64,000 nt of DNA from IMG/VR virus record IMGVR_UViG_3300042549_004948, positions 98,470 to 162,469 of that record; one strand, given 5' to 3'. Every line of letters starts with the position of its first letter. The stretch's first letter is position 1. The translations under genes and the position numbers were made by a program. Positions 14,567 through 57,484 of the stretch are shown here, piece by piece. Source of the stretch: a virus. The notes under the pieces were generated by a model. The model had not been told where the DNA came from, did no database searches, and saw nothing but the letters and a program-made list of their open reading frames with translations.

Positions 14567-15769
14567 TTAATGTCCCTTATTTGGGAATCTAGTCCATCCA
14601 ACTGTCCAACCAGGTTTTGACAGTGTTTCCATTTCGTTTTTAGTATAAGACACTTCTTTATTTCCTTGACTCAATGCTTTTGTTTTCATTTCTGATGCAA
14701 TTATTACAGCAGATGTAGATCTAAAATTTTGTAATGGATCAAATGCTTGTACTTCGTTATTTTCAAACTTGCTGACTCCATCTTTATAAGCTTGAGCAGT
14801 TTCATTTGACTCTATACTAAAGCCGCCTTTCATGTAACCTAGTATCTTGGAGTTAGTTATTGTGAATTGGGTGGCTCTCCTCCACCTCAATCCTAAGTTA
14901 TGATTGGTTATTGAGTTAGCATCAAAAGGGCCTACCAGAATCATCCCAATTAGCTTTGGGTGAGTAAATGGCTGCGCGCTTGATCCTGTTCCATCATTAT
15001 CGCATTCTACACCATTACCAGCATCTCCATTATCTACAAATTGAGGATCGCGTTTTGATACTCCGTTTGTTACAGTTCCAGTATATCCAAAGTCAAAGTC
15101 GAAGTCATCGTCTGCTGTAGCATACGCATATAAGTTCTTAGGTGATACTGTGCCTCCAAAAAATTCAAAGGCATCGTCGTTAGCGTAGATAGTTTGGACA
15201 TTTTCGATTGTAGTACCTGATCCTACTGCACCTAAAGTTAATCCATTGATTTCTGAGTTTGGTAGTGCAGCTATGCCTGCATATTCTATACGAATATACT
15301 TTAATATACCACTATTATCATTATCATTCATACCACCATAAGGTCTACCAATACCACCTTCAATAGTTGGTTCAGCCGATCTATTTGTTTTAGCGCGGCC
15401 TAGTATTACAATACCTCCCCAATCTCCAGGAGTTTTTTCTCCTTCAGGTTTTCCTGATGTAAACACGATAGGTTTTGATACGGTTCCTTCTGCAATTATT
15501 TGTGCGCCTCTTTCAATACATAGTGCACCTTTCTCAGCAATATCACTTATTATAGTAGTGCCAGGCTGAATGATTAATCTAGCACCATCAGTTACATACA
15601 CGTATCCTTTGAGTGTCCATACTTTGTCTGATGTTAAAGTAGTTGTAGTATTAATGTTACCACTCAATGTAGTTACAGAAGGTACGTTGATAGGTTGCGC
15701 GTCGCCGCCTAGTTCTTTAGTGCAACTGAAGATACTGGTAGCAATTAGTAATAAGAAAAGCTTTTTCAT
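14567..15769 (-). CDS. Surface lipoprotein with right-handed beta-helix-like repeats
   Basis: A 400-residue lipoprotein: MKKLFLLLIATSIFSC ends in a lipobox cysteine at 16. The body has short repeating strands rich in G, N and D (LIIQPGTTI, GAQIIAEGT, GDWGGIVILGRAK, IEYAGIAALPNSEINGLTLGAVG), as in parallel beta-helix proteins. The motif GDWGGIVILGRA is typical of a Bacteroidota surface-protein family. The gene overlaps the end of the TonB-receptor gene by 4 bases, so the pair is translationally coupled, as in receptor/lipoprotein uptake pairs. Ligand unknown. In a phage this is very unusual. Confidence 0.75.
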   Translation of the reverse strand: MKKLFLLLIATSIFSCTKELGGDAQPINVPSVTTLSGNINTTTTLTSDKVWTLKGYVYVTDGARLIIQPGTTIISDIAEKGALCIERGAQIIAEGTVSKPIVFTSGKPEGEKTPGDWGGIVILGRAKTNRSAEPTIEGGIGRPYGGMNDNDNSGILKYIRIEYAGIAALPNSEINGLTLGAVGSGTTIENVQTIYANDDAFEFFGGTVSPKNLYAYATADDDFDFDFGYTGTVTNGVSKRDPQFVDNGDAGNGVECDNDGTGSSAQPFTHPKLIGMILVGPFDANSITNHNLGLRWRRATQFTITNSKILGYMKGGFSIESNETAQAYKDGVSKFENNEVQAFDPLQNFRSTSAVIIASEMKTKALSQGNKEVSYTKNEMETLSKPGWTVGWTRFPNKGH

Positions 15770-23722: not shown

Positions 23723-25177
23723 TTAAACTATGATTCCGTTAACTACTTTACCAGCTACATCGGTAAGTCTATATCTTCTTCCTAAGTGTTTATATGTAAG
23801 CGTTTCGTGATCTATTCCCATCAAGTGTAATATTGTTGCGTGGAAGTCATGAACATCTACAGGATCTTTTATAATATTGTATCCAAATTCATCTGTTTCT
23901 CCATAAACAATACCGGGCTTAATTCCTCCACCTGCCATCCAGATGCTGAAACACTTTGGATGATGATCTCTGCCATAATTTATAGGATCAATTCTTCCTT
24001 GACAAAAGTTTGTTCTTCCAAATTCACCACCCCAGATTACGAGTGTTTCGTCAAGGAGTCCACGTTGCTTCAAGTCTTTTATAAGTGCTGCTGAAGCGCG
24101 GTCTACGTCTTCTGCCTGCATTTTCATATCGTTAACAAGATTGCCATGGGTATCCCATCCTTGGTGATAGAGTTGAACAAAACGAACGCCTGATTCAGTT
24201 AACTTTCTTGCTAGCAAACAATTCGCAGCATATGTTCCAGGAATTAAACAATCTGCTCCATACATTTTAATGACATGGTCAGGTTCTTTATTTAAGTCTG
24301 TTAATTCAGGAACTGCTGTTTGCATACGATAAGACATTTCGTATTGTTGAATTCTGGTATTTATCTCAGGATCTCCAAAATTTTGAAATGCTTCGGTGTT
24401 AAACTTTGCTAGTTGATCTAGCATATCTCTTCTATTTTGCTTATTGTGTCCTTCTGGATTTTTAAGATATAATACTGGATCTTCGCCGCTGCTAAACACA
24501 ACTCCTTGGTGCATACTATCTAAAAAACCATTGCTCCAAAGTTTTGAATATACACCCTGACCATTGCCGCGTCCACGGGAAAGCAAAACCGTATAAGCAG
24601 GAAGATTAGAATTTTCACTTCCAAGTCCATAACTCATCCATGCACCCATACTAGGTCTATTGCCTTGTTGTGCACCTGTTTGGAAAAATGTTAGTGCAGG
24701 ATCGTGGTTAATTGCTTCTGTATTCATACTTCTGATGATACAGATATCGTCTGCTATTGATCCTATATGTGGAAATAAACTTGATATAGAAGCACCTGAT
24801 TGTCCGTACTGATTGAAACCAAATGCAGAGCCTACCAATGGGAACTTATCTTGGTTTGCAGTCATGCCAGTTAACCTTTGCCCATTTCGTATTGAGGCAG
24901 GTAGATCTTGACCATGCATTGTATTCAATAGAGGTTTGTGATCAAAGGTTTCAAGTTGAGACGGTGCTCCATTTTGAAACAAGTATATAACTCGTTTTGC
25001 TTTTGGTGCAAATTGTGCAATACCAAGTGGTAAAGATTTAACTTCTCCACTAGATCCAAACAATTGATCTTTGAATAGCATGGTTCCTAAAGCAGCGCTT
25101 CCGATACCTAGACCTGCCTTTGTTAGAAAATGCCTTCTAGTAATGTTTAGTCTAAACTGTTTTTCTTGGTTTTCCAT
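23723..25177 (-). CDS. Tat-exported DUF1501 (sulfatase-fold-like) protein
   Basis: A 484-residue protein with a twin-arginine signal (ITRRHFLTKAGLGIGSAALG). Conserved DUF1501 blocks follow: AKRVIYLFQNGAPSQLETFDHKP, PHIGSIADDICIIRSMNTEAINHDPA, RPSMGAWMSYGLG, LYHQGWDTHG, LVIWGGEFGRTNFCQG, YGRDHHPKCFSIWMAGGGIKPG and DPVDVHDFHATILHLMGID. This family, of alkaline phosphatase/sulfatase fold, is common in Planctomycetes and Bacteroidota, usually beside a DUF1553 cytochrome-like gene, which is absent here. Base composition looks richer in G+C than neighbouring genes. This suggests recent transfer from a bacterium. Function in a phage unknown. Confidence 0.88.
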   Translation of the reverse strand: MENQEKQFRLNITRRHFLTKAGLGIGSAALGTMLFKDQLFGSSGEVKSLPLGIAQFAPKAKRVIYLFQNGAPSQLETFDHKPLLNTMHGQDLPASIRNGQRLTGMTANQDKFPLVGSAFGFNQYGQSGASISSLFPHIGSIADDICIIRSMNTEAINHDPALTFFQTGAQQGNRPSMGAWMSYGLGSENSNLPAYTVLLSRGRGNGQGVYSKLWSNGFLDSMHQGVVFSSGEDPVLYLKNPEGHNKQNRRDMLDQLAKFNTEAFQNFGDPEINTRIQQYEMSYRMQTAVPELTDLNKEPDHVIKMYGADCLIPGTYAANCLLARKLTESGVRFVQLYHQGWDTHGNLVNDMKMQAEDVDRASAALIKDLKQRGLLDETLVIWGGEFGRTNFCQGRIDPINYGRDHHPKCFSIWMAGGGIKPGIVYGETDEFGYNIIKDPVDVHDFHATILHLMGIDHETLTYKHLGRRYRLTDVAGKVVNGIIV

Positions 25178-34343: not shown

Positions 34344-35960
34344 TTACATTCCCATACCCATCATAGGGTCGGCTTTTTCATCTTTGTCTTTTTTTTCAAA
34401 TACAACTGATTCTGTAGTTAGAATTGTTCCGGCAACGGATGCAGCATTCTTGAGGGCGGTAATAACCACCTTTGCTGGATCAATGATACCTGCTTCAAGA
34501 GCATTCACTATTTTGTGACTCTTTGCATCGTATACTTGGCCTTCGCCTGGGATATTCTCGAACCAGTTTTCTACTCCGGCATTACTCAAGATCTTCTTGA
34601 ATGGTGATTGAAGTGCGGTTCTTACAATGTCTCTAGCAATAGCAACATTTGAATTGCTCTCTGCTCTATGGTTTAATGATACTCTGTAAAGAGTTGCACC
34701 ACCACCTGGAACAATGCCGTCTGCAAGTGCAGCTTTAGTTGCGAACAAGGCGTCTTCTACACGATCTTTCTTTTCTTTGATCTCAATATCACTATTTCCA
34801 CCAACAGAAATGATCGCAACACCACCGACTAGTTTACCTAATCTCTCTTGTAGCTTTTCTCTCTCATAGAAAGAGGTTGCCTTTTCTATTTGCTCTTTAA
34901 TTTCTATCGCTCTATTAGCCAAAGCTGTTTCATCACCTTTACCATCAATGATAGTAGTCTCTTCTTTAGAAACCGTGATAAGTCTAGTTGATCCAAGATA
35001 CTGAGCTAGTTGTTGCGTAGATAGTTTATCAAGCTTTAAACCTTTGTCTTTAGAGATAACTTGGCCGCCGGTCAAGATAGCAATGTCTTCAAGGATCAAA
35101 GTCTTACGCTCACCAAAGTCTGGTGCTTTAACTGCGCAAACTTGTACGATGCCACGCATCTTATTAACAATGAGTGTAGCAAGTGCTTCATCTCCAATGT
35201 CTTCAGCGATGATCAACAAAGGTCTATTCTCAGAGTTAGCTTTAGTTAGTACTTGTAGTAGCTCTTGAGCTGTAGAAATACGACCATCATAAAGTAGTAC
35301 ATAAGGATTGTCAAGCACGGCTTGCATCGTTGTGTTATTAGTCACAAAATAAGGTGACTTATAACCACGATCAAACTGCATACCTTCTACGATCTCGAGT
35401 GTTGTTTCACCAGACTTAGACTCTTCAATAGTAACCACACCTTCACGACCTACTTTATCAATAGCTTCGCTGATAAGGTTACCTACTTCTGAATCGTTAT
35501 TACCTGATATAGTTGCAACTTGTTTGATTTGCTCTTCTGAAGATATTTCGATTGCCATATCTTTTATTTCTTGCACGATTTCATTTACAATCTTATCGAT
35601 CTCATTCTTGATCTCTACTGCATTAGATCCTTGACGAATCTCTTTCAAGCCTGCTTTAACAAGCTCTGTAGCGATCAATGTAGATGTTGTTGTACCATCA
35701 CCTGCTTCATTTGCACTTTTAATACTAACTTGTTTAACTAGCTGCGCTCCAAGGTCTTCGATATCATCTTCTAACTTGTGGAATGCTTTTGCAACTGTTA
35801 CTCCGTCCTTAGTAACTTTAACTTCACCAGATTGTTCTCTGATTAAAACAGTTCTACCACCTGGACCTAATGTAGATGTAACTGACGCATTTAGCTTTTC
35901 TATGCCTGACAGAAGCTTTTCTTTAAGCTCTGTTCCGAAAACATTTTTTGTTGTACTCAT
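34344..35960 (-). CDS. groL: GroEL chaperonin (Hsp60)
   Basis: A 538-residue type I chaperonin, full length for the family. It has STLGPGGRTV (residues 29-38), the ATPase motif GDGTTTST (87-94, with Asp88), GYKSPYFVTN in the apical domain, GGVAIISVGG, DRVEDALFATKAALADGIVPGGG, and a C-terminal DPMMGMGM like the bacterial GGM tail. It folds proteins inside a double ring with GroES, whose gene is 11 bases upstream. Phages more often carry only a GroES-like cochaperonin (T4 gp31). A complete set suggests a need to fold phage structural proteins independently of the host. Confidence 0.97.
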   Translation of the reverse strand: MSTTKNVFGTELKEKLLSGIEKLNASVTSTLGPGGRTVLIREQSGEVKVTKDGVTVAKAFHKLEDDIEDLGAQLVKQVSIKSANEAGDGTTTSTLIATELVKAGLKEIRQGSNAVEIKNEIDKIVNEIVQEIKDMAIEISSEEQIKQVATISGNNDSEVGNLISEAIDKVGREGVVTIEESKSGETTLEIVEGMQFDRGYKSPYFVTNNTTMQAVLDNPYVLLYDGRISTAQELLQVLTKANSENRPLLIIAEDIGDEALATLIVNKMRGIVQVCAVKAPDFGERKTLILEDIAILTGGQVISKDKGLKLDKLSTQQLAQYLGSTRLITVSKEETTIIDGKGDETALANRAIEIKEQIEKATSFYEREKLQERLGKLVGGVAIISVGGNSDIEIKEKKDRVEDALFATKAALADGIVPGGGATLYRVSLNHRAESNSNVAIARDIVRTALQSPFKKILSNAGVENWFENIPGEGQVYDAKSHKIVNALEAGIIDPAKVVITALKNAASVAGTILTTESVVFEKKDKDEKADPMMGMGM

Positions 35961-35971
35961 AATGATTTTGT

Positions 35972-36265
35972 TTATTCGATAACTGCAAATATATCTGATT
36001 CTTTACAAATGAAATAGTCTTGTCCATCAAGTACTACTCTTTGTGATCCTAGTTTAGGAATCAACACGACATCTCCAACTTGTAGAGTTGAAATAACTAG
36101 CTTGTCTGTGTTATAGTTGTAGACATCAGATGTTCCAACTACTTCTCCCATTTCAGGTCTTTCTTTACCAAGGTCTGGAATAATTATATTACCAAACGTT
36201 TCTTCTTCTGTTTCTATAGGCTTCAATAATATAAAGCCATTTAGAGGGGTTATTTTTTTATCCAT
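35972..36265 (-). CDS. groS: GroES cochaperonin (Hsp10)
   Basis: A 97-residue Hsp10. ITPLNGFILLKPIETEEETFGNIIIPD contains the mobile loop (about residues 16-32) that contacts GroEL through its hydrophobic IIIP part, then GEVVGTSDVY, VGDVVLIPKLGSQRVVLDGQDYFICKESDIFAVIE. Normal length. It lies between a 64-residue gene and groEL and would act with it in the cytoplasm. Sequence appears bacterial in type rather than like T4 gp31. Confidence 0.95.
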   Translation of the reverse strand: MDKKITPLNGFILLKPIETEEETFGNIIIPDLGKERPEMGEVVGTSDVYNYNTDKLVISTLQVGDVVLIPKLGSQRVVLDGQDYFICKESDIFAVIE

Positions 36266-37755: not shown

Positions 37756-40062
37756 TTAGGCATGACCGTCTCTAAGATTCTTTGCTATCTGAGGAATAGC
37801 GTACAAAGGTACATTTAGTTTAGTCGTATTTTCCATGCAATCCTGGACGATACTGGCCGCTTCTTTTGCTTTTGCGTGTTCTACCTCAATTACTAGCTGA
37901 TCATGGATCTGGGCGCATACCCAGCCATTTATGCCTGATTGCTTAAATCTCCTATTAATAGCAAGCGCAGCTCTATTAACTATTGATGCTGCTAGACCTT
38001 GTATTTGTACGTTGCATCCATTATTTAGACCATTAATATAGTCTCTTGATAAGCTCTTTATTTGATCTACGCCGTATTGTCTTTCCATTTCTTTCTTGAT
38101 ATTCCAGTCAAGTAAGTCATCACCAATTTTATCATAGATGGCTTTTACTTTAGGAAGGTGCCTTATCCTACCAACCTGTGTTTTAATATAGCCGTTCTTT
38201 TTAACAAACTCTTTTGATTTAAGCATCCACTTTTTAAGCTCAGGAAACCCATTAAGATATCCATCTATTAGTACCTTAGCTTCTTTTGTTGAAACTCCTA
38301 GATTCATACCTAGTGCATAAGCTCCCATACCATAAGGAATACCTAGGGCATATGCCTTTGCCTTATTACGAACTTTAGGCAGATGCTTTCTCAAAAAGTT
38401 AGGAGCATTTTTATCAGGAGAGTAATCGCTATATCCTTCAGTTTTAATTGCGATAGTAGAATAGAAGTCCCAGTTATTACGGAATATATCCATAAGACCT
38501 TCATCACCAGATACGTGAGCAAACGCACTCGGTTCTAGAGAAGAGTAATCATCATCTATAAACACATTATGTTCTTCATGAATAAAGAACGCTCTAATCA
38601 AGTTATTATACTCGATAACTATCGGATCATCGTCGCCTTCTTCTTTAGGTCTAGGAAGCTGTTGTGCATCAGAACCATAACGGCCTGATACTGTGCCATG
38701 TTGTTTATAATAGAAGTAATATCTACCGTCTTCTTGAGCATCTAAGAAACGATCCATGTACGTACTCTTGATCTTAAGTAGCCTATTGTAAATACGTAGG
38801 CTTTTTGCCCAGTCATATTTGCCGGCAATTGATTGCACAGTGTCATCATCAAACTGAGGTTTGCCGGTCTTAGTGGTAGACAGAGGTTTAATACCTAGAA
38901 CACCGAAAGCGATTTCACCCATTTGATCTTTAGATTGAATGTTAAAATAGTCTCCGTCATTATCTTCTTTCCACAATCTCATACTAATTTTCATTGACAC
39001 ATCTTTATCAAGTACTGAGGGATCTCCGTGTATTAAGAAGTGTTTAGTAGAACATTCAGGAAGTCTCATTAAAGATGACTTAGTAATACTATATTTGCCA
39101 GTCTTTTCAGACTGCTCTAGATCAAACTTCATTTCTTTTACAAGCTCTTGAGCAAATGTGCCTTTGTTATTAGGAGGGTAAGCTTCAGTTGCTTTCATAA
39201 CAACCCAAGCTCTTACATCAGGCTTTTGTAACAACTCTTTTGTAACGAGAGTTTCATATTCTCGTAGCTTTTCTATAATTTTGGCACGACTAGATTTTAT
39301 AATTTCCATGTCAAGCTTTATGCCAACTTGTTCCATAGGAATAGTAACCTCTTTATACAAAGGCATCACCTCATCTTCAAAGAAGAATTGTTCTAGATTC
39401 TCTTCTTTCAATATAGCCATGAAGTGGTGATACACTCTGAGTGTTAAATCGGTATCTGCTGATGCGTATTCTGATAATAATTCAAGATCTGCTTTCCAGA
39501 TCTCGTAGTTCTCTCTTGTAATTGTGCCACCATTATTTTTGATAGACTCTTTCATTTTGATTTGCTCTTCATTTGCAGCCATTTCAACATCTAGACCAAT
39601 ATGTTTTTGAATCATTTTGGCAATGTCTTTAAGACCGAATGCAGAACCTCCCATAAAGCCGGCGCCTTCCTCTTTTACTGTATGAACGAGTAACATTGTA
39701 TCTACATGGAGTGAAGGAAGTAAATCTATATCATAGAAACATTTGACAAATCTAACGTCAAAGGATGCGTTGTGCATCACAAGCTTTTTTCCAATAAGTA
39801 GTAAGATTGTTTTCTTAGCAAGATCATGAGCAAGCTGCCCTTCGATATGAGCGTCTTGAAGTAGCTCATCTTTGAATATCATTGTAGGCATGTAATAGCC
39901 TTTGCCAACTTCTCCAGATACGGAGAAGCCAATGATTTTACCCTTTCTAGGATTAAGACTATTAGTCTCTGTATCGAATGCGATTATCTCATTGTCTTTG
40001 ATATGCTGGACCATGTCTTTCAGCTTATCAATAGTGTCTACTGTAACATAACTTTTATTCAT
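37756..40062 (-). CDS. polA: DNA polymerase I-type (family A) with 3'-5' exonuclease
   Basis: A 768-residue family A polymerase. The exonuclease domain has AFDTETNSL (Asp30, Glu32), HNASFDVRFVK and SADTDLTLRVYHH, a DEDD-type site. The polymerase domain has YGSDAQQLPRP, motif A DYSSLEPSAF (Asp505), motif B RNKAKAYALGIPYGMG (565-580), and motif C AQIHDQLVIEV (His720-Asp721). No 5' nuclease domain is fused; a separate RNase H/5' nuclease is encoded at 47.8 kb. T4-type phages normally use a family B polymerase, so this is a replacement module. A homing endonuclease follows. Confidence 0.95.
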   Translation of the reverse strand: MNKSYVTVDTIDKLKDMVQHIKDNEIIAFDTETNSLNPRKGKIIGFSVSGEVGKGYYMPTMIFKDELLQDAHIEGQLAHDLAKKTILLLIGKKLVMHNASFDVRFVKCFYDIDLLPSLHVDTMLLVHTVKEEGAGFMGGSAFGLKDIAKMIQKHIGLDVEMAANEEQIKMKESIKNNGGTITRENYEIWKADLELLSEYASADTDLTLRVYHHFMAILKEENLEQFFFEDEVMPLYKEVTIPMEQVGIKLDMEIIKSSRAKIIEKLREYETLVTKELLQKPDVRAWVVMKATEAYPPNNKGTFAQELVKEMKFDLEQSEKTGKYSITKSSLMRLPECSTKHFLIHGDPSVLDKDVSMKISMRLWKEDNDGDYFNIQSKDQMGEIAFGVLGIKPLSTTKTGKPQFDDDTVQSIAGKYDWAKSLRIYNRLLKIKSTYMDRFLDAQEDGRYYFYYKQHGTVSGRYGSDAQQLPRPKEEGDDDPIVIEYNNLIRAFFIHEEHNVFIDDDYSSLEPSAFAHVSGDEGLMDIFRNNWDFYSTIAIKTEGYSDYSPDKNAPNFLRKHLPKVRNKAKAYALGIPYGMGAYALGMNLGVSTKEAKVLIDGYLNGFPELKKWMLKSKEFVKKNGYIKTQVGRIRHLPKVKAIYDKIGDDLLDWNIKKEMERQYGVDQIKSLSRDYINGLNNGCNVQIQGLAASIVNRAALAINRRFKQSGINGWVCAQIHDQLVIEVEHAKAKEAASIVQDCMENTTKLNVPLYAIPQIAKNLRDGHA

Positions 40063-46371: not shown

Positions 46372-47757
46372 TTAAAGACCTAATTCAAAAAATTTACTTG
46401 CCAGATAAGCTTTCTCGTCTTTATCCAATCCAGAATTAAAAGGTTTATTAGATCCAGTTGCAGGTGTGCCGGTATCAAATGTCAGTTCGTCATCATCTAG
46501 ACTGTCTGGATTGATTTCTATACTACCATTGTTTGTACTTATCTTGGCTGCATATGTCATTCCGTCCATACCGTATCTATTTTTCATGATATGCATACGA
46601 CCTGTTCCATTTACCTTGTCTTGTCTTTTTCTTGATAGAGACATAGCAAAGTCTGCAATCATCATCTTATTATAAGATCCGGCAGCCTTGTCTCCTTCAA
46701 TTACATCATCCTTTGCACCTGCCCTATTTACCTGAGATACTGTCCAGACAGGAACTTTAAGTTCTCTTGCCATACCTTTAGTTGCAGTATAAACATCATC
46801 AATTGCGTCTTTAGGATCTATTGATTTAGTTTTACTTTTTAACAAGTCAACATAGTCGATAATAACTAAGTCAGGAGGATATCCTAGATCTCTACATTTC
46901 TGAATATGTGATTCTATAGTATGGATTGTTGTTTTTCCCATAGGGAATTCTTTAATGATCAACTTACCTTTAACTTTAGATATTGCCTCTTCAATTGCGC
47001 CTCTATGTTTTTGTACACTCTGTACGTCAATTCCTGTAAATAGTGCGTCATAACGTTTACCAATATAATACTCAGATAGTTCTAATGTGTAGTGACAAAC
47101 AGTATATCCTCTTTGAACGGCCATGGCTCCTATATTAACTAGGATCCATGATTTACCGCCGCCAGGATTTCCGAATATAATACCAAGGTCTCCACAACCA
47201 AGGCCGCCCATGAGTAGCTCATTGATATGTGGCCATGCTGTAGGTATGGCAGATCTTTCTTCTTCACGATATCTTGTTTCAATATCCTTTTCATATTCGT
47301 GTCCAATAGATTTATCTTGACCTGCTTTTAAAGCCTGATCCATCATATACTTGATGTCATCATATTGGCCTTTCTCTAATAAAGATACTGAATTAAGGAT
47401 TGCTTTCTTAATTTGTTGATTTTTACAGAAGCTACTAAACTCTTGCTCAACATAATCACGATCTTCGTTAGAGCTCTTTAATGCTTCTTTTAATTGCTCT
47501 ACGACACTTACCTTCAATACTTCATTTTCGATCTTTCTTACCTCGACTTGTAAAGCATCAGTAGACTGCGTAGTATTGTACTTATAATAGTACCTTAATA
47601 TCTCACCAACAATCCACTTGTGTGCAGGATTGTCAAACATTTCAGTATCAAGAATATCATTGATGTTTTGTAGAAACTCTTTGTGCTTTAACAAACTAGA
47701 TAATACTTTAATCTGAAATGATATTCCGTATTGTTGTAACTGATTTAATGACGACAT
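46372..47757 (-). CDS. Replicative DNA helicase, DnaB / T4 gp41-like
   Basis: A 461-residue hexameric helicase. The C-terminal RecA-like domain has Walker A GNPGGGKSW, Walker B LVIIDYVDLL, the HYTLELSEYYIGKRYDAL block, and a WTVSQVNRAG sensor region, as in the DnaB family. The N-terminal 160 residues are helical, as in gp41 and DnaB. Unwinds the fork ahead of the polymerase; a partner primase is not seen in the window. It is 2 bases from the RNase H-like gene, in an order helicase, 5' nuclease, UvsX, SSB typical of phage replication blocks. Confidence 0.92.
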   Translation of the reverse strand: MSSLNQLQQYGISFQIKVLSSLLKHKEFLQNINDILDTEMFDNPAHKWIVGEILRYYYKYNTTQSTDALQVEVRKIENEVLKVSVVEQLKEALKSSNEDRDYVEQEFSSFCKNQQIKKAILNSVSLLEKGQYDDIKYMMDQALKAGQDKSIGHEYEKDIETRYREEERSAIPTAWPHINELLMGGLGCGDLGIIFGNPGGGKSWILVNIGAMAVQRGYTVCHYTLELSEYYIGKRYDALFTGIDVQSVQKHRGAIEEAISKVKGKLIIKEFPMGKTTIHTIESHIQKCRDLGYPPDLVIIDYVDLLKSKTKSIDPKDAIDDVYTATKGMARELKVPVWTVSQVNRAGAKDDVIEGDKAAGSYNKMMIADFAMSLSRKRQDKVNGTGRMHIMKNRYGMDGMTYAAKISTNNGSIEINPDSLDDDELTFDTGTPATGSNKPFNSGLDKDEKAYLASKFFELGL

Positions 47758-47759
47758 AA

Positions 47760-48773
47760 CTATTTATATTTTTGTAACTGATTGAAATTATTAAATAACC
47801 ACATGCTGACGTTAGAAATAGAATTTCCTAACTCATCCTCATGATATAAATCTAAGAATTCCTGTGAATTAAATGTCTTTTTTGGATCTAGTAGAACACT
47901 ATTTATTTCTTCTATGGCTTCTTCAGGAATATTAGGATTCTTTAGATCCATCAACTTTTGATTTATTCTAAGTTGAAACTCATAGTTAGAAATAGATTGG
48001 AGTATCTTCTTATTTCCATCTTTACATTTTTCAAGAATATTATCTAGAGTAATTTCTGCCTCTGAACCTAGTTCAGGAAACTCTTTAATCATAGTCTTTT
48101 CACCAAGGCCTTTTACTCCAGGCACATTATCTCCAGAGTCTCCTAACAAGATTTTTTGCGTTAAAAAGTTTTTTGCTGTTACTTTATATTCATTCAATAC
48201 TAAATCTCTGTCATAGAACTTCTTTTTAGTAGGAGAGTATACTGTTATTTTATCTGAAACTAATTGTAGATAATCTCTATCTGAAGACATGATAGTCATT
48301 TCACCATCTAATTGCCCTGCAATATATCCAATCACATCGTCTGCTTCTATTTTATCGATCGATATAAGATCTACAGGAAGAGTTTTTAGATAGAAGATTA
48401 ATCTTACAAGTTGAGATGTAATTGCTTCAGACTCGTCTTGTTGTGATTCGAATGAATCCCAGTTAGTAACTCTACTAATTCCTCTATTTGCTTTATAATC
48501 TGGATAGATATATCTTTTATTAGTTGATGAACCTTGGCCATCAAACATAATAATCACTCTAGTCGGTCTAACAAGCTTAATAATGTATCCTAAGGATCTT
48601 AAAAAGCCTGTTAAACCTCCTACGTGAGATAAATCTTTGTTAACCCAGCCTATAGCAGTAAATGCTCTTAGAAATGTGTTCAGTCCGTCTATCAATAATA
48701 CTCGACTATTAATAGACTCTTCGATTTTCTCTTCTTTGAGTGAATCGAATATTTTTTTATATTCTTCGTTCAT
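47760..48773 (-). CDS. 5'-3' exonuclease / RNase H-like (FEN family)
   Basis: A 337-residue structure-specific nuclease related to T4 RNase H and the PolA 5' nuclease domain. VLLIDGLNTFLRAF, RVIIMFDGQG...RYIYPDYKANR, EADDVIGYIAG, MSSDRDYLQLVSD and LLGDSGDNVPGVKGLGEKT supply the ring of acidic metal ligands and the helix-hairpin-helix. It removes RNA primers and flaps. It supplies the 5' nuclease activity that the phage PolA lacks. Its stop meets the ATG of the helicase gene 2 bases later, and its own start shares a base with the UvsX stop. Confidence 0.92.
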   Translation of the reverse strand: MNEEYKKIFDSLKEEKIEESINSRVLLIDGLNTFLRAFTAIGWVNKDLSHVGGLTGFLRSLGYIIKLVRPTRVIIMFDGQGSSTNKRYIYPDYKANRGISRVTNWDSFESQQDESEAITSQLVRLIFYLKTLPVDLISIDKIEADDVIGYIAGQLDGEMTIMSSDRDYLQLVSDKITVYSPTKKKFYDRDLVLNEYKVTAKNFLTQKILLGDSGDNVPGVKGLGEKTMIKEFPELGSEAEITLDNILEKCKDGNKKILQSISNYEFQLRINQKLMDLKNPNIPEEAIEEINSVLLDPKKTFNSQEFLDLYHEDELGNSISNVSMWLFNNFNQLQKYK

Positions 48774-49834
48774 TAATCTTCGGTATCAAATATATCTGGT
48801 GATAAGGCCGTTTCTTCTTCTACGATATCGAATGTATTAGATCCAAGAACTTTTGTCCATTGATCAGAATACTTCTTTTTGTAATCGTCTAACTCTTTCT
48901 TATCATCATTTATGAAACCGTGTACTGTCATAATAACTTTGTTGACAGCAGTAACTCCTGTTACGTGATTTTTATCACAACTAATTCTTGTTCTCTTAGC
49001 AAACTCAACTTCTTTACCATTTTTAGTTGCTTTGATTTTATTTGTACCAGCTCTAGCAATGTTACCAAATGTAACAACTAATGAAGAGTCAAAGTACATC
49101 GTGTTACCACCTTTATTATTTAAGGTTGGTTGACCCATAGGTGAATCAGGTTTTGCAACCCACACTTTATTTACAGCAACTAATGAATTAGTATAAGGCT
49201 GAGATGCTTTTCTTGACAGTACAACTCTTTGATTAATAAAATTACCAAACTGTTGAGACATTGCTCCTGCGTTCCACTCATTATTGTTAGTTGATTTTTC
49301 AATCGACATTCTACAAGGAATAGATCCTACAGAATCCCAGAAAAAACAAACATCATGAGGAAGAGTTCCTCTCTTTTGCTCATCTAGAATATCAGCGATA
49401 AAGCCTGCAACGTCTTCAATACAATCAAGTCTTTCACGATCGATATATAAGAAAAAGCCTTTATAATCTATAACTTCACCACTATTTGGATCTGCTACTT
49501 CTTCAAATTCAAAACCCATTTCTCGAGCGTGTTTCCAATCCCATTTCATTTCTGTAATAATAAACACAGGAAGAACTCCCATTTTTTGTGCGCTTACTGC
49601 AGCTTCAAGAAGTGCTGTAGTTTTACCTGTATCAGAGTGTCCTCTTAACAATGTAATATGGCCAATAGGAATACCTGGGATTTGAAGCGTATCTTGAAAT
49701 GCTTGAGAAAGTGGTATCCACCTTTGCTCTTTAAAAACTACTCCAGAAGAAAGGTTTTTACCCTTCTTAAATTTTTCTAAATCTACTGTGCCTTTTATTG
49801 CGCTAGACACGGCGCTATTAAGTGATTTTGCCAT
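48773..49834 (-). CDS. uvsX: UvsX/RecA-like recombinase
   Basis: A 353-residue RecA-family strand-exchange protein. Walker A is GHSDTGKTT (residues 65-73). VCFFWDSVGSIPC is Walker B, and NQRVVLSRKASQPYTNSLVAVNKVWVAKPDSPMGQPTLNNKGGNTMYFDSS covers the DNA-binding loops. The composition is like phage UvsX rather than bacterial RecA. It drives recombination-dependent replication with the SSB encoded immediately upstream across a terminator. The acidic C-terminus (EEETALSPDIFDTED) is typical. Confidence 0.92.
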   Translation of the reverse strand: MAKSLNSAVSSAIKGTVDLEKFKKGKNLSSGVVFKEQRWIPLSQAFQDTLQIPGIPIGHITLLRGHSDTGKTTALLEAAVSAQKMGVLPVFIITEMKWDWKHAREMGFEFEEVADPNSGEVIDYKGFFLYIDRERLDCIEDVAGFIADILDEQKRGTLPHDVCFFWDSVGSIPCRMSIEKSTNNNEWNAGAMSQQFGNFINQRVVLSRKASQPYTNSLVAVNKVWVAKPDSPMGQPTLNNKGGNTMYFDSSLVVTFGNIARAGTNKIKATKNGKEVEFAKRTRISCDKNHVTGVTAVNKVIMTVHGFINDDKKELDDYKKKYSDQWTKVLGSNTFDIVEEETALSPDIFDTED

Positions 49835-49882: not shown

Positions 49883-50686
49883 TTAGATATCAAATAAGCT
49901 GTCAATTTCTGAGTCTACACTTGCTTTTGTAGTATTCAGACTGTATCCTTGTTTAGGGGCAGATTGTTCCCAAGGAAGATCAGATTTTGTTTGCACTACA
50001 TCTGCTTGTTCTTTAATGTCCTCTTCAGGATTTAGATGCTTGAGAAGTGCCTCTTTCATTTCATCGTAAGAATACCTCTTGAATTGAGTTAGAGGATCTG
50101 GCTGGGTTTCAAGCCATAATTTAACTTTTGTAGCATCTTCTGATAAAGGAGTAGCCTTTGTTCTAACTCTTACGGTAGATGTATTATACATCAAACCTGT
50201 GGTTTCTTTACCAGCAGTTTCGACTGTAATGTCACGACCAGTAATAGGATCAGTGTAATCTCCTACGTCCTCATCTTCAGCAATGCTTAACAAGTCCATG
50301 TAAACTTGCTTACCAAATTCCCAAAGGCGAACACCTTTGTCTTCTTCTCCACGAACAATGACTGGAGCGAAAACTCTCATCTTTGGTTCAAGCTTCTTAG
50401 CTAACTGCCAATTGTCTTTTTCACTTGACTTTCTCAAGCCTTGTGCAAATTCAACAATAGGATCTTTTTCGTTAAAATTAGTCAAGCCCATCATGGTTCT
50501 GTTGTTGATACCATAATGCATGTAGACTTCTTTAAACGGGTTTGATTTGTTAAACACAGAAGGTACAATACGTACTGAGTGTTTACCCACGGTTGGCCTC
50601 CAAATAGTTTGGCTTAGGTCTTTCTTCTGTCCTCCACGTGGATTTTGTAGAGCCGACAGTCTCGATTTTAAAACAGATATATCCAT
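49883..50686 (-). CDS. Single-stranded DNA-binding protein, T4 gp32-like
   Basis: A 267-residue ssDNA-binding protein. The N-terminus is basic (VLKSRLSALQNPRGGQKK), then TIWRPTVGKHSVRIVPSVFNKSNPFKEVYMHYGINNRTMMGLTNF, matching the gp32 OB-fold core. The usual zinc-binding cysteines of T4 gp32 are absent. The C-terminus is acidic (ASVDSEIDSLFDI), as in proteins that recruit polymerase and helicase. It precedes UvsX. A T-rich gap with a variant motif (CATTTATT) lies upstream. Confidence 0.88.
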   Translation of the reverse strand: MDISVLKSRLSALQNPRGGQKKDLSQTIWRPTVGKHSVRIVPSVFNKSNPFKEVYMHYGINNRTMMGLTNFNEKDPIVEFAQGLRKSSEKDNWQLAKKLEPKMRVFAPVIVRGEEDKGVRLWEFGKQVYMDLLSIAEDEDVGDYTDPITGRDITVETAGKETTGLMYNTSTVRVRTKATPLSEDATKVKLWLETQPDPLTQFKRYSYDEMKEALLKHLNPEEDIKEQADVVQTKSDLPWEQSAPKQGYSLNTTKASVDSEIDSLFDI

Positions 50687-50748: not shown

Positions 50749-51183
50749 TTACACGGCGACTATCTTATGGATAGTTGTGTTTAATCTTCTTAAGTCGTCT
50801 CCTTGAGTCAATAGAACACTATTCTTATAGTCGTTCCAATTGATAATGTAAGAAGTATCTAGGACTCCTCCATTTAGACTCTTGATCAAAGTATTGAGAG
50901 CATTGATTGTATACAGGGTATTTGACTCCTTTTTTCTGTGGAGTAGGATCGTATTTGGAAGGATCTTAGTAGGGCCTCCCTCAATCTCTATATTATATGT
51001 ACAAAGGAACTCTTCAGAATCTTTAGACTCCAAAACAAATATCTTTTTATATAAAATTGTATACTCTCTATTTATTTCCCTAAGGGTATCATCTAATCTA
51101 TCCTTAGGCGAGAACGTACAGAATAATTTATTCATAATCAACTCTGCTGTTATTTCTGTTATTTTTTCACTCAACATAACCAT
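50749..51183 (-). CDS. Hypothetical phage protein near the SSB
   Basis: A 144-residue protein: KITEITAELIMNKLFCTFSPKDRLDDTLREINREYTILYKKIFV...GPTKILPNTILLHRKKESNTLYTINALNTLIKSLNGGVLDTSYIINWNDYKNSVLLTQGDDLRRLNTTIHKIVAV. The NTLYTINALNxLI...NWxxYxNxxLL pattern recurs in phages close to polymerase genes. Function unknown. An ATATTTAT motif lies 12 bases before the ATG. Confidence 0.6.
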   Translation of the reverse strand: MVMLSEKITEITAELIMNKLFCTFSPKDRLDDTLREINREYTILYKKIFVLESKDSEEFLCTYNIEIEGGPTKILPNTILLHRKKESNTLYTINALNTLIKSLNGGVLDTSYIINWNDYKNSVLLTQGDDLRRLNTTIHKIVAV

Positions 51184-51213: not shown

Positions 51214-52509
51214 CTAGAAAGCATAATTAATGCCGTATTTGTGTTTTACTACCATATTATCGCCTTCTAGAATGTCTTTTATCTTTTTTAAAAGTGTTTT
51301 ACCATCCTCTTGAGAAAAGTCAAATAAGAAGGAGTCGTAGGTAATTAGGATTAGCTTAGTCTTCTTCTTACTAAGAAGTTTATTAACCTCTATGATCTTG
51401 TATATATTTTCTTTGGTCTCTAGGTTCTGGATTATATAGTTAAACAACTTTAGCTTATTCATGCCTGGAAGCTTCTTCAAGATCCTACCGGTCGGAAGTA
51501 TCAAGGCTTTGTGAGCATTATACTTCTTCCACTCTTGTTCTATGAACTGGTTTAGTGACTTAAAGAACTCTATATCCTCGTATTTCTTTTCTATCCCGCC
51601 GTAGAGCTGCTTAAAGGTAATGGCCTTTGATTCTTTATACTGCTCAGGTGTAAGCTCGTCTACGTGGAAGTACGCGCGTCCTAGATAGTTGTGCATTGAC
51701 TCTTTTGGCGGATCAAAACCTATCAACCTAGATATTAGTCTTAGGTGGTAAGCATCGAAGTCAAATTCTACTAAGAAGTCATTTTTAGGGATGAAACACT
51801 TCCTAAAGTCTTGATCTTTAGGTATTGCTAAAAAGTTAACTCCATTAAAAGAGTTAGTAGGCCTTCCAGTCAAATTATAAAGATTGTAGTATGAATAAAT
51901 AGTGTCTCCTAATAGAGAGTATTCTTTATTATGAAATTGGAATTTATCTCCAAAACATTTGAGATCTATCTTTATCCCGGCCTCTTCTACTTTCTTATAT
52001 GCTTCTACTAACTTTTCTTGGAGTTCTATATCCATCTCAAGTTCAAAGTAGTCTTTGACTAGTTGATACAAGCACTCACATCTTTCATAGTGTTTTGAGA
52101 TAGGTATTATCTCATTAACAGTAGGAAGCACATTATACTTGATATAAAAGTCTTTATGGACTGGTGTGTTACATTCGAAAGAACTATACTCGTTATTTTT
52201 ATCTAGACAGATGAACTGTACATCAATAGAGTTAGGCAAATCTATAAAATAAGAATGAAGCTTTTTATCCAAGAGATAAATCTTATCGTGCTTTTGTAAG
52301 AAGGCTTCAATTAATTTAAGATCTAGACTAAATCCTTCAGAGTGGTTAACTACAAAGACATAACCCTTTTTAGAGTTATTATAGTAGATCAAACTTACTC
52401 TAGCTAACTTAGGATGGTAATAATCGTTAGAAGTGACTATTTGTATAAAAGCCTGGTCAGAGACTTCTAAACGATCTAATTGCTCTTTATCTTCAATAAT
52501 GAAATACAT
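51214..52509 (-). CDS. Second, shorter family A polymerase-like protein
   Basis: A 431-residue protein whose C-terminal half matches a PolA core. GRPTNSFNGVNFLAIPKDQDFRKCFIP matches the GRxSSxxPNLQNIP...R..F block. Motif A is FDFDAYHLRLI (Asp250 kept; the Glu710 position of E. coli is His255). Motif B KAITFKQLYGG has exactly the spacing of KxxxFxxxYG (Lys295, Tyr303). Motif C is TYDSFLF (Asp392 kept, HDE changed to YDS). The N-terminal 150 residues show no exonuclease DxE, so any exonuclease domain is lost or degenerate. Both metal-binding aspartates remain, so polymerisation is possible. Separate from the full-length PolA at 37.8 kb. Confidence 0.75.
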   Translation of the reverse strand: MYFIIEDKEQLDRLEVSDQAFIQIVTSNDYYHPKLARVSLIYYNNSKKGYVFVVNHSEGFSLDLKLIEAFLQKHDKIYLLDKKLHSYFIDLPNSIDVQFICLDKNNEYSSFECNTPVHKDFYIKYNVLPTVNEIIPISKHYERCECLYQLVKDYFELEMDIELQEKLVEAYKKVEEAGIKIDLKCFGDKFQFHNKEYSLLGDTIYSYYNLYNLTGRPTNSFNGVNFLAIPKDQDFRKCFIPKNDFLVEFDFDAYHLRLISRLIGFDPPKESMHNYLGRAYFHVDELTPEQYKESKAITFKQLYGGIEKKYEDIEFFKSLNQFIEQEWKKYNAHKALILPTGRILKKLPGMNKLKLFNYIIQNLETKENIYKIIEVNKLLSKKKTKLILITYDSFLFDFSQEDGKTLLKKIKDILEGDNMVVKHKYGINYAF

Positions 52510-52563: not shown

Positions 52564-53190
52564 CTACATAGTAGGTCTTGCGAACTTTGAATATTCGCCA
52601 TTAATAAAATCAACTATGCCTAAAAAAGTTTTATTAGCAGACTCTGTCAATCTTTTATTTGTGTCTATAATACCTGGAATGACATTATATTGTGACATTC
52701 TAGTACTATTCAAAGGGCCTGTTAACTTCCAAAGTATAGTAGTGGTTTGGTATATTGTTATATCATAGTCTGCAGTACCATTTATTATGGTATTATATTC
52801 GTCTTGGCTGATTTCTGTTATAAAACCTTTCTCATTTTCTTTTTTAGTGAAGTATCTTATTACATATCCTTTTTTATAATCTTGATCAGTTGGTTGAGGA
52901 TAGTATGCGTTAGGTTTTCCAGAAACTCTATTAATTACATTTGTTTTATTTGTTAATTCTTTTTTACTAGCGTTAGAAAGATTTAGTGCGTCTAAGCCAG
53001 GTGCAGATTCAATTGCAGTAATTTTAGTTAGAAGATTACTAGGTCCAACTTCAGGACTAGGTCCAGAAAATGCACGGCCATCATAAGTTAAATAGTATTT
53101 TCCTACATAGGGTTTATCATTAAGCAAGAACTCTTGCCCAATACTATTTAGATTATTTATTATTTTAAATGATGGATAGTATCTTAACAT
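52564..53190 (-). CDS. Hypothetical virion-associated protein next to the hub
   Basis: A 208-residue protein: MLRYYPSFKIINNLNSIGQEFLLNDKPYVGKYYLTYDGRAFSGPSPEVGPSNLLTKI...VNEIN-like turns and KKGYVIRYFTKKENEKGFITEISQDEY. The pattern YxGxYYxxYDGxxFxGPxP recurs in proteins beside baseplate genes of environmental T4-like phages. It follows the hub-lysozyme gene by 4 bases, so it is a likely baseplate or fibre-attachment component. Specific role unknown. Confidence 0.6.
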   Translation of the reverse strand: MLRYYPSFKIINNLNSIGQEFLLNDKPYVGKYYLTYDGRAFSGPSPEVGPSNLLTKITAIESAPGLDALNLSNASKKELTNKTNVINRVSGKPNAYYPQPTDQDYKKGYVIRYFTKKENEKGFITEISQDEYNTIINGTADYDITIYQTTTILWKLTGPLNSTRMSQYNVIPGIIDTNKRLTESANKTFLGIVDFINGEYSKFARPTM

Positions 53191-53194
53191 AGTT

Positions 53195-56100
53195 CTAAGA
53201 TAAATATAGTGTTGCTTCTTCTTTTCTTCTTGTTTCCAATGCTTTTATATAACCGCTTACTTTTCCTGTTTTAGGTCCTAGAGTTATGGCAGATGCGACA
53301 GCGGTAGATCCTGTATTTGATTTTATTGCAGTTACTACTGATTCAGTCAGGCTTCCTGCATTATATGTAAAGCTTACTAGCGATGCTTTTTGTTTATCAT
53401 TTAAACTGTTCCAGTTTTGTTGTCCTATTTGAAAAATAACTCTTGGTGCAAAAGTTGTTTTTATTTGATATACTAAAGTTCTTTTAGCATCTTCTCTACT
53501 AAATACAGTGTCAGATCCTACATTTTTAATTGTTCCGTCTGCTAATACAATCTTGTCTGTACCATAACCAGCTCTTAATGTACCTTCATCTGGTCTTGGT
53601 CTCTCTAAAAATCCTTCTTTTTTAGATATGAAATCAAAAGCTATTTGTTCCCAAATCTCATTAATATTGAGATTGGCTATAGACGTTTGACCTGCAGGAG
53701 TTGATGGATTATTTTGATTTTCTGTAAATACACCAGCTCTATTATCTGTTTGAACTACACTTCCTGAAAACTCTGTTTTATCTTTCAAGAAAATCATATT
53801 AGCTCTTACATTAGTAGTCCACTGATTATTCTCTAATGTATGTCCTAATCCTACAACAACAAATCCAACTTTATTAATATGATCTTGTTGTAAGCCTTTC
53901 TCTCCTGGAACTACTCTTGCATTATAAGTATAAGGAAGCAGTTCATCAGGAATAGTAAAAGCTTGGCCCATTAAAAATCCAGAAATACCATCGGTACTAA
54001 AATTAACTGATACTGGTATCATAGCAGACGCTCTAGTAGGATACTCGTCATTTTTAATTTTAGTCATTTTATCTATAAAATAATTTGTTGCATGATCAAC
54101 ACTTGTTTCTGATGGATTTATCTTACTATAAAAATCAGAAATAGTTTGATTAAATTGAACAGCTGAATTTATAATAGAATCAAGATTAACATCTGCTTTA
54201 CTTCCGGTATTTGTATTTTGAACTTCTAATCTATTAACAATGTATCTATCTTGATAACTTGTATTAATATATCCATAATTGTCTCCATTTTTAGATAGAG
54301 ATGCTTTTGATCCAACGTCTGCATTAGCAGATATAGCTAGTGTATTTGATAATTTACTAGATATGTCTGATTTTATATCTAGAGTCTTAGCTATAGAATA
54401 TTTACCAATTAAAGGAAGTTCTGTAGTATTAGATCTAGATAAAATAGTTCCTGTCGTTTTAACATCGTTAGGTCCAATTTGATCTTCTTCATCTTTAACA
54501 GGAATAAATTGATCATCTATAATTTGAAGAGTATTTCCTTTATCATTATAAGAAAGTCTAAATACATTTATTTTTCCAAGATATTTGTTAACATCAGTTA
54601 ATATTTGCTCTATAAATTCTTTTAGATAAATACTATTAGTGCCATCTTTATAGCTAAAGTCTTTTATTATTTTTATTAAATAATCTACATTAAGTAAAAT
54701 ATTCATCATTTTACCTCTATAGATATTATTATCAGTTCCATCAAATTTTATCCGAGGAATTTGTCCAGTCAAAACATCTTGAGTTGCTGGATTAAATAAA
54801 GGTATGACTTCTTGACTTCCACTAGGAGGCTTTATATTATCTCCATTTAAAATACTAGGATCAAATAATTTTTTATAATCATTAAAACTTCCTTCAAAAC
54901 GAATTAATGTAACCCAAGGATTGGTGCTAAGTTGTTTTGTATTACTTAAAAAATAATTATGAGCTGTGTTGAAATCTATGTATACTAAAGGAGTTTGAGT
55001 TTTGTCTGCCTCTTTAGAATCATATATAGTACAACAGTGATTTAATACCATCAGCAATAATCCTAGAGGGATATATACAGGGTGATTAGTAGACGTTCCT
55101 TTAATTATTTCCTGATTAATTTGATAAGGTACAACAAATGCTTTTAATAGAGAATCAAAATCACAAGCTTGTAGTGTATTAATATCTGCAGAATTACCCA
55201 TTAAACTACTCGCAAATCCATACTTAGATTGTATTTTTAATCTTTGTAAACGATTTAATGCTTTTATATTATCATTATATCCAGTATTTTCAATTTGTTC
55301 TGGTACTATCAATTCATTTATAAAATCACTAAATATGCCATTAGAAAATATTTGATTTAAAAATATTTTTTCATTGGCATCTGTCATTTTTAAAGCAAAA
55401 ACAGATTTTCCTATGTCTAAGTTTCCTGTTAAAGTTATAGCTCTATTAAGAGCATGGAGTTGTATAGCCCTTAAAGTGAGTTCTAGAGCTGATTGGGAAT
55501 TTAAAGCTTCTGATATTTGTGTTTCAAGAGCTTTTTGTTGTATTGCTTGATCTTCTTTAGAAGTTGTTTGTGTTTGGTTTTGATCTACTATTCTTTTTTG
55601 AGTTGCTAAATAATCTGGTGAATTGTTTCCTTTAGCTATAGCAGATATCAGATCTGTGTCTGTTAATTTAATTTGTACGGTTACAGGAATTGATACTGTA
55701 CCTTGTTGTGTAACAGTTATAGTTCTTTCTGTAGTAAAGTTTTCTACTAAAACAGTTCCAGGAACAACTACATCTATAGTAGTTGCTAAAGTTACAACAG
55801 GATAAAAATTTATGCCGTTTAAATTTGTAGAATTTGTATCTGAGGAAACTGTTGAAAACGGTTTTGATGTTACTGCAAATTCTGTAGTTTCATTTACATT
55901 TCTTGCTTCAAATGCTATTTCTGTAAATTCTATATTGTCAGATGATTTTAACTGTTTAATAGCTGTTTCATAAACAAGTTGTTGATTTATTATTTCTTTT
56001 TTATAATTAGGATTATTCCTACCAAATTCAGTTATTATAGAAGCATAATATGTTTTTTTATTTTGCCCTAAATAATTTATATTAACTTTTATTTGTTGTG

Positions 56101-57484
56101 TATTACTAGGATTAGTCCTATCAAAAAACATCTTAGTTTCTAAATCAAGAGAAGCTAAAGAACTTTGTATTTGTTGTTGAACATTACCTATTTGATTTTG
56201 CGTATTTTGATTAACTGGCGATGTTATAGCCGCTTGATTAGAATTTGCAGGTCTATAATACTCTGTTAATTTTTCAAATAAGTGTTTTGTATCTATAGTT
56301 ATAGAAGATACTAATTGATTTATATTTTTAGTAGGTATAACGGCTCCTAAAGTAGGAAAAAATAAAGACTTTCCTCTATCGAATTTTATATCATATAAAA
56401 AATCATATTCATTAATATTAGTAGTTTTTGAACCAATATATGCAGCCTGATTTACTATGTTTTGTAATTCTGATTGGTTAGGATCTTTATCTTTTCCGTT
56501 AATTTGTTTATTAAGATCTCTTAATATAGAAACTCTTTTAGAATCTTCTAATTCTTGTTTTGCTAATTCTTCTTGTCTTTGTTTTTGTAAAAGAGCCGCT
56601 TGTTCTGCATTAGAAATTTCAATTAGCGTGTTACTTAAAATTCTAATCTCTTCTTGCACGATACCAGGTAAAGTTCCTACGTTATTAATCTTTAATGAGT
56701 CTGCTAAAACACCTAGCGCCATCAATCTTAATTGACAATCAAAGCCACCATCTTGAGTATATGTAAATGAAAAATTAGTAACTATGCCAAGCATTCCATC
56801 ATAATTGCCTTCAGACTGTCTAGAGTTTTTAGCTACTTGTATGTATATCTCTTCTTTAGATAAATCTGCTTGAAATGGGTCTACGCTATATAATTCACTA
56901 GATTGTATTCTATTTGGATCTTCAGAACTATAAAATGCCGTATTTCCCCATTCTAAAAACATTGTGAAGCCTAATTTAAAATACAGCGCATCCATAATAT
57001 CAAGCTGCGCTTTATCCCAACATTTAAAATTAATTGTAGCAGATCTAACAGAACCTAAGCGGCCTTGTGTTTCAATAGCTACATTTGTGATACCTGGCAT
57101 TGGCTTATAGCCATATCTTTGTATTTCATCTTTTCCTAATGTGCCATAAGCACCGCCTGCACCAATACCAGATCTTAATTGATAAGAATTTTTGTCTAGG
57201 TATTTTGATGTTCCTCCAAAGAGTACAAACTGTTTTGCTAAATCAGATTTGCTAGTTATAGAATCTCCAACTATCCTGTTAAAATAATTTAAGTCAGATT
57301 GATTAACTAAATCTATAGAAGATACTAATCTTACCCATGCTGATTTATTTGTAAGGTATAAGATGTTACTATTATCTCTTGAATCTCTTGCCCCATTTAT
57401 AGATCTAGTTTGAATTTGGCTTAATAGCCATTGAGGAAGCTTAGTTCCTATAATATTAGATATTTTGTTGTCTAGACCTGCCAT
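53195..57484 (-). CDS. Baseplate hub protein with C-terminal lysozyme (giant)
   Basis: A 1429-residue structural protein. The N-terminus (KISNIIGTKLPQWLLSQIQTRS...YKPMPGITNVAIETQGRLGSVRSATINFKCWDKAQLDIMDALYFKLGFTMFLEWG) resembles environmental T4-like baseplate hub proteins. The middle is long and coiled or repeat-rich (about residues 290-700). The last 155 residues are a T4-type lysozyme: FISKKEGFLERPRPDEGTLRAGYGTD with the catalytic Glu in KKEGF, then SLNDKQKASLVSFTYNAG. In T4, gp5 carries the lysozyme and gp27 the hub; here they may be fused. The lysozyme would pierce peptidoglycan during injection. Confidence 0.85.
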   Translation of the reverse strand: MAGLDNKISNIIGTKLPQWLLSQIQTRSINGARDSRDNSNILYLTNKSAWVRLVSSIDLVNQSDLNYFNRIVGDSITSKSDLAKQFVLFGGTSKYLDKNSYQLRSGIGAGGAYGTLGKDEIQRYGYKPMPGITNVAIETQGRLGSVRSATINFKCWDKAQLDIMDALYFKLGFTMFLEWGNTAFYSSEDPNRIQSSELYSVDPFQADLSKEEIYIQVAKNSRQSEGNYDGMLGIVTNFSFTYTQDGGFDCQLRLMALGVLADSLKINNVGTLPGIVQEEIRILSNTLIEISNAEQAALLQKQRQEELAKQELEDSKRVSILRDLNKQINGKDKDPNQSELQNIVNQAAYIGSKTTNINEYDFLYDIKFDRGKSLFFPTLGAVIPTKNINQLVSSITIDTKHLFEKLTEYYRPANSNQAAITSPVNQNTQNQIGNVQQQIQSSLASLDLETKMFFDRTNPSNTQQIKVNINYLGQNKKTYYASIITEFGRNNPNYKKEIINQQLVYETAIKQLKSSDNIEFTEIAFEARNVNETTEFAVTSKPFSTVSSDTNSTNLNGINFYPVVTLATTIDVVVPGTVLVENFTTERTITVTQQGTVSIPVTVQIKLTDTDLISAIAKGNNSPDYLATQKRIVDQNQTQTTSKEDQAIQQKALETQISEALNSQSALELTLRAIQLHALNRAITLTGNLDIGKSVFALKMTDANEKIFLNQIFSNGIFSDFINELIVPEQIENTGYNDNIKALNRLQRLKIQSKYGFASSLMGNSADINTLQACDFDSLLKAFVVPYQINQEIIKGTSTNHPVYIPLGLLLMVLNHCCTIYDSKEADKTQTPLVYIDFNTAHNYFLSNTKQLSTNPWVTLIRFEGSFNDYKKLFDPSILNGDNIKPPSGSQEVIPLFNPATQDVLTGQIPRIKFDGTDNNIYRGKMMNILLNVDYLIKIIKDFSYKDGTNSIYLKEFIEQILTDVNKYLGKINVFRLSYNDKGNTLQIIDDQFIPVKDEEDQIGPNDVKTTGTILSRSNTTELPLIGKYSIAKTLDIKSDISSKLSNTLAISANADVGSKASLSKNGDNYGYINTSYQDRYIVNRLEVQNTNTGSKADVNLDSIINSAVQFNQTISDFYSKINPSETSVDHATNYFIDKMTKIKNDEYPTRASAMIPVSVNFSTDGISGFLMGQAFTIPDELLPYTYNARVVPGEKGLQQDHINKVGFVVVGLGHTLENNQWTTNVRANMIFLKDKTEFSGSVVQTDNRAGVFTENQNNPSTPAGQTSIANLNINEIWEQIAFDFISKKEGFLERPRPDEGTLRAGYGTDKIVLADGTIKNVGSDTVFSREDAKRTLVYQIKTTFAPRVIFQIGQQNWNSLNDKQKASLVSFTYNAGSLTESVVTAIKSNTGSTAVASAITLGPKTGKVSGYIKALETRRKEEATLYLS
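53200..53207 (-). promoter_or_regulatory. Candidate promoter motif ATATTTAT
   Basis: 9 bases upstream of the 208-residue gene ATG, overlapping the last codons of the hub gene. Confidence 0.4.

Follow-up and report, generated by a model that had tools for sequence, protein, structure and literature searches.

The divPolA1 group of phage family-A DNA polymerases was described in 2024 in 14 phages, including Flavobacterium phage immuto (Virol J 2024;21:200, PMC11348598). Its members keep the catalytic palm residues, have a truncated thumb and an inactivated exonuclease, accompany a regular PolA, PolB or PolC, and are encoded upstream of replication genes; DNA polymerase activity was inferred by the authors (PMC11348598). 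Among the papers searched, only this article and its preprint dealt with divPolA1, and no biochemical data were found for any member. A second group, divPolA2, of barbaviruses and other phages, resembles divPolA1 in having a family-A palm while lacking a normal thumb and exonuclease domain, and is distinguished by an unrelated N-terminal domain and a variable gene context (PMC11348598). The hhalign probability between our divPolA1 family profile and the divPolA2 protein AUR84708 was 0.4, in a comparison with one single sequence that constitutes a weak test. Klenow-type Pol I of bacteria and phages shares with divPolA1 the palm, the O-helix fold, motifs A, B and C, the TGR motif and the equivalents of N845 and Q849. 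Unlike Klenow-type Pol I, divPolA1 is thumbless and has short fingers, carries E710H, R754Y and H881Y (E. coli numbering), and is not expected to have exonuclease activity.

The window analysed here, 64,000 nucleotides in length, covers the last part of a virus record of 162,469 bases (IMGVR_UViG_3300042549_004948, positions 98,470 to 162,469). The plus-strand translation of 51214-52509 was full of stops, and the real open reading frame was found on the minus strand. The divPolA1 gene and the replication genes around it are as follows.

52564-53190, minus strand: conserved gene of 208 aa directly upstream of divPolA1, at the end of the tail module
51214-52509, minus strand: divPolA1 gene (open reading frame from 52509 to 51214, ATG start, 431 aa)
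divPolA1 residues 1-135: remnant exonuclease-like fold; residues about 160-431: palm and reduced fingers
divPolA1 motifs: TGR at 214-216; D250 and H255 in motif A; Y291, K295, F299 and Y303 in motif B; N357 and Q361; Y391-D392-S393 in motif C
50749-51183, minus strand: p144, 144 aa, no known family, downstream of divPolA1, candidate partner
49883-50686, minus strand: gp32-like single-strand DNA-binding protein, SSB (Pfam gp32, 3.5e-10; phrog_1192)
48773-49834, minus strand: UvsX/RecA-like recombinase
47760-48773, minus strand: 5'-3' exonuclease of the Pol I N-terminal nuclease type, as a separate gene (Pfam, 3.8e-30)
46372-47757, minus strand: DnaB-like replicative helicase (phrog_19, 2.6e-75)
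37756-40062, minus strand: regular phage PolA, 768 aa (Pfam, 2.6e-64; exonuclease, 4.7e-13)

Elsewhere in the window, 15766-18018 (minus strand) encodes a beta-barrel outer-membrane protein that includes a TonB-dependent receptor plug domain (Pfam, 3.1e-20 and 1.8e-07); the gene adjoins other predicted secreted or lipoprotein-like genes. A DUF1501 protein (23723-25177, minus strand; Pfam, 6.9e-156), unusual-looking in a phage, begins with a stretch similar to a twin-arginine signal.

The window protein matched divPolA1 of immuto with 35% identity over 99% coverage (E=2e-69). It has every listed divPolA1 feature and therefore belongs to divPolA1, with no difference in kind from the published members. 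What is new here is the wider range of the group, the invariant substitutions, the presence of a primase, the companion polymerases, the fixed place of the gene and its p144 neighbour.

Similarity to family-A polymerases exceeded what chance would give. The Pfam DNA_pol_A profile matched the window protein with E=5.8e-6 (25.9 bits, under the curated cut-off of 34.3) and other members with E values down to 4.6e-11; immuto and three other relatives passed the cut-off once same-frame stretches were summed. A PDB search with a single divPolA1 sequence returned nothing relevant, whereas the family profile of 71 relatives matched the E. coli Klenow fragment (E 4.5e-5). The same profile aligned with regular phage PolAs with an hhalign probability of 97.5 (E 5.6e-12). 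PHROGs and PADLOC contained no family for divPolA1, and NCBIfam gave only weak polymerase matches far under cut-off.

Of three IMG/VR scans that found relatives, one yielded 392, another at least 585, and the one queried with the Microcystis phage protein 109; a scan with the huge-phage protein as the query yielded none. The known range of divPolA1 now covers hundreds of relatives from IMG/VR, Microcystis phage Mel-JY01 and its kin (a clade of the cyanophage type), one 484-kb phage and a few MAG contigs. In the phage collection, which lacks LR796625, the representative genome of the divPolA1 paper (PMC11348598), the same six records contained divPolA1 and p144, and the remaining PolA matches were weak matches to regular polymerases. 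A phylogenetic tree separated all 18 divPolA1 sequences from the regular PolAs as a single group (support 100/100) but, given its long branches and unsure root, shows no more than this separation. A recent duplication of the phage's own PolA was rejected on the basis of this separate grouping and of the 15% identity of the two proteins in the profile alignment.

The initial annotation had described a 431-residue protein with D250, K295/Y303 and D392, a motif A Glu changed to His and YDS in motif C, and all of these were placed correctly. In the family-profile alignment to Klenow (usual numbering), D250, H255, Y291 and K295 correspond to D705, E710, R754 and K758, F299, Y303, N357 and Q361 to F762, Y766, N845 and Q849, and Y391, D392 and S393 of motif C to H881, D882 and E883. 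The "exact PolA spacing" claimed for the protein applies to the K-x7-Y of motif B but not to the distances between motifs: motifs A and B are 45 residues apart compared with 64 in the phage's own PolA, and the motif-B Tyr and the palm Gln are 58 apart compared with 111. No exonuclease site had been visible, in agreement with our search for the triad (DxE / NxxxD / YxxxD) in divPolA1, in which DxE and NxxxD were absent and YxxxD was unconserved. In contrast, all three 3'-5' exonuclease motifs are intact in the phage PolA, whose motif C is HDQ. This PolA is full-length, as had been stated, in the Klenow sense, whereas its 5' nuclease counterpart is the separate gene at 47760-48773. A GroEL gene (34344-36265, minus strand) with an adjoining GroES-like gene lies close to the regular PolA, an arrangement also reported in other divPolA1 phages.

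An AlphaFold2 model of divPolA1 built with 68 related sequences (pLDDT 94.6, pTM 0.91) contained a palm, shortened fingers and an O-helix, and its N-terminal half-fold resembled an exonuclease. Thumb helices were looked for at residues 190-230 of the model and none were seen; the distance from GIKID to TGR is 36 residues in divPolA1 versus 212 in the phage PolA. In a Foldseek search of the PDB, all of the top 50 matches were family-A DNA polymerases (bacterial Pol I and apicoplast), the best of them a DNA polymerase I (E 6.5e-19), with TM by query up to 0.74. The named viral structure matches were PolA-type DNA polymerases. The proposal of a second PolA-like polymerase is supported by the predicted palm and the family conservation.

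T214, R216, D250, H255, K295, F299, Y303, Q361, Y391 and D392 were invariant in 221 of 221 full-length sequences, the window protein included, and Y291 was Tyr in 217 with a gap in the other 4. This set is rich in close relatives; 71 representatives (~85% identity) gave the same picture. The two metal-binding aspartates, the Lys, the Tyr and the palm Gln were kept down to ~21% identity. The median dN/dS was 0.041 overall, 0.033 for the polymerase part and 0.062 for the N-terminal part, which indicates purifying selection, and the changes in the key codons were nearly all synonymous. A sequencing or frame artefact, or a decaying pseudogene, for which no supporting evidence was found, is refuted by the 220 other intact full-length homologues together with this dN/dS of 0.04 and can be regarded as practically negligible.

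Three positions related to nucleotide binding or catalysis are altered throughout the family, namely E710 to His, R754 to Tyr and H881 to Tyr; the R754 position was Arg in every regular PolA examined. With the exonuclease site and the thumb also lost, the changes at E710 and R754 could suit a non-catalytic scaffold, that is, a degenerate polymerase that would bind primer-template ends or the regular polymerase and regulate fork assembly. The rate of evolution points the same way, as divPolA1 shares 35% identity with its immuto counterpart compared with 42-58% for p144, SSB, UvsX, exonuclease, helicase and PolA. However, the invariance of the catalytic residues and the stronger constraint on the polymerase part than on the N-terminal part count against this reading, and we consider a scaffold unlikely. 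On the basis of the sequences, the "non-catalytic relative" of the initial annotation is similarly the less likely interpretation.

The catalytic residues that never vary in divPolA1 speak for nucleotidyl transfer, and catalysis is moderately supported. Tt72 polymerase, a family-A enzyme of natural phage origin whose motif C contains Asp-Ser, is active; its mutants retain 35% activity when the E710 equivalent is changed to Ala and 76% when the Ser is changed to Ala, compared with 4% when either Asp is changed to Ala (PMC9324360). The YDS motif and the lost Glu alone therefore do not mean that divPolA1 is inactive. On the other side, the family-wide changes at E710, R754 and H881 speak against activity, and without a thumb it is not obvious how DNA is held.

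E710 is the steric-gate Glu, which blocks ribonucleotides in Pol I (PMC9324360). At this position every divPolA1 member has His, and the structure of Bacillus Pol I E658A, in which the same Glu is replaced by Ala, was solved with rCTP (4dqq) and was among the Foldseek matches. T7-type single-subunit RNA polymerase has no steric-gate Glu and has Asp-Ser in motif C. Asp-Ser at this place occurs in other phage PolAs too. A relaxed choice of sugar would allow divPolA1 to make or extend RNA-containing primers between the primase and the replicative polymerase, a role that would to some extent recall Pol alpha or single-subunit RNA polymerases. We regard this role as improbable, since F762, which forms the second half of the gate, is kept and a primase accompanies divPolA1 in the six longest records. 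This DnaG/gp61-like primase has an open frame of 310-333 codons; divPolA1 is therefore no stand-in for a missing primase in these records, and primase replacement was rejected. Homology to an RNA polymerase is also unsupported by hhalign and Foldseek, as the probability of a profile match to T7 RNA polymerase was 0.1 and the top 50 PDB structure matches included no RNA polymerase. The steric-gate His, present in all members, and the Tyr at R754 nevertheless leave room for an unusual nucleotide choice.

The gene order was fixed as tail genes, divPolA1, p144, SSB, UvsX, 5' exonuclease and DnaB. SSB and UvsX were located downstream on the same strand in 60 of 60 divPolA1 loci with enough sequence, and all four of SSB, UvsX, exonuclease and helicase were present in 54 of those 60. 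A homologue of the 208-aa gene was directly upstream of divPolA1 in the cyanophage clade as well. In the tail region of the window, 53195-57484 (minus strand) encodes a 1429-aa protein with a C-terminal phage lysozyme domain, and its counterpart in Mel-JY01 is half the length (671 aa). From the conserved context it follows that the block is inherited vertically, but not which step divPolA1 serves. The context favours work in replication or recombination, and the neighbouring SSB, UvsX and 5' exonuclease point to primer extension, gap filling or D-loop synthesis. The absent proofreading site and the shortened fingers could make the active site more open, as in a translesion polymerase that bypasses damaged bases; this role is very unlikely, given that in 60 of 60 loci the gene belongs to the core replication block and not to a set of repair or auxiliary genes, with no lesion-specific pointer.

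The polymerase that accompanies divPolA1 varied. A PolA was present in six records (the window's own, L129, L098, L162, L128 and immuto), a PolB in six others (L241, L174, L225, L228, L161 and Mel-JY01), and PolB plus PolC in the 484-kb phage. L164 and L186, shorter records in which none was found, and L250, located in a bacterial MAG, were left out of this count. The 484-kb uncultured phage (L085, LR756508.1) encodes divPolA1, p144, PolB-type segments and a PolC-type polymerase together.

A p144 homologue was located downstream in 203 of 203 divPolA1 loci with room for one, and divPolA1 was in turn present at 74 of 76 p144 loci, the other two having fewer than 420 bases upstream. In the cyanophage clade, p144 adjoins divPolA1 although other genes, 1.1-3.7 kb in all, lie between p144 and SSB; exceptions are L130 and the 484-kb phage, in each of which one ORF lies between divPolA1 and p144. 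The protein, which carries an NTLYTINALN motif and was encoded at all informative loci of both clades, is strongly conserved, and better so than divPolA1 (58% versus 35% identity to immuto). Searches with p144 found no family in Pfam or PHROG and no match among PDB sequences. Its predicted fold (pLDDT 88) gave only weak ferredoxin/RRM-like Foldseek matches (best E 0.42), from which nothing was concluded. The genes from tail to helicase are inherited as one block, which makes the linkage of p144 weaker evidence than the counts suggest; common inheritance, and not contact between the two proteins, may account for it.

Taken together, these results lead us to favour, with modest confidence, an active accessory polymerase of low processivity that carries out short synthesis at replication or recombination intermediates; we infer its catalysis, its distributive mode and the step that it serves. 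divPolA1 is a phage family-A group that lost the thumb and proofreading, retained the catalytic palm and was most probably inherited at the head of the SSB-UvsX-5' exonuclease-helicase block. The loss of the thumb argues for distributive synthesis or for a DNA-holding partner, and p144 is a possible subunit that would provide the grip on DNA. The short synthesis may extend primers, fill gaps once the 5' exonuclease has acted, or prime from D-loops during recombination-dependent replication; the genome itself would be copied by a separate, exchangeable polymerase (PolA, PolB or PolB plus PolC). A bolder version, which we hold to be rather doubtful, is that divPolA1 and p144 form a two-subunit polymerase with p144 as the thumb substitute, that E710 to His and R754 to Tyr create a new nucleotide choice, and that together they start or bridge primers for the replicative polymerase of the phage, whatever its family.

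If the accessory role is correct, a constant accessory polymerase and an exchangeable main polymerase of family A or B would share replication in these phages. The small conserved neighbour p144 is a concrete candidate partner, and the invariant substitutions make clear predictions on nucleotide choice.
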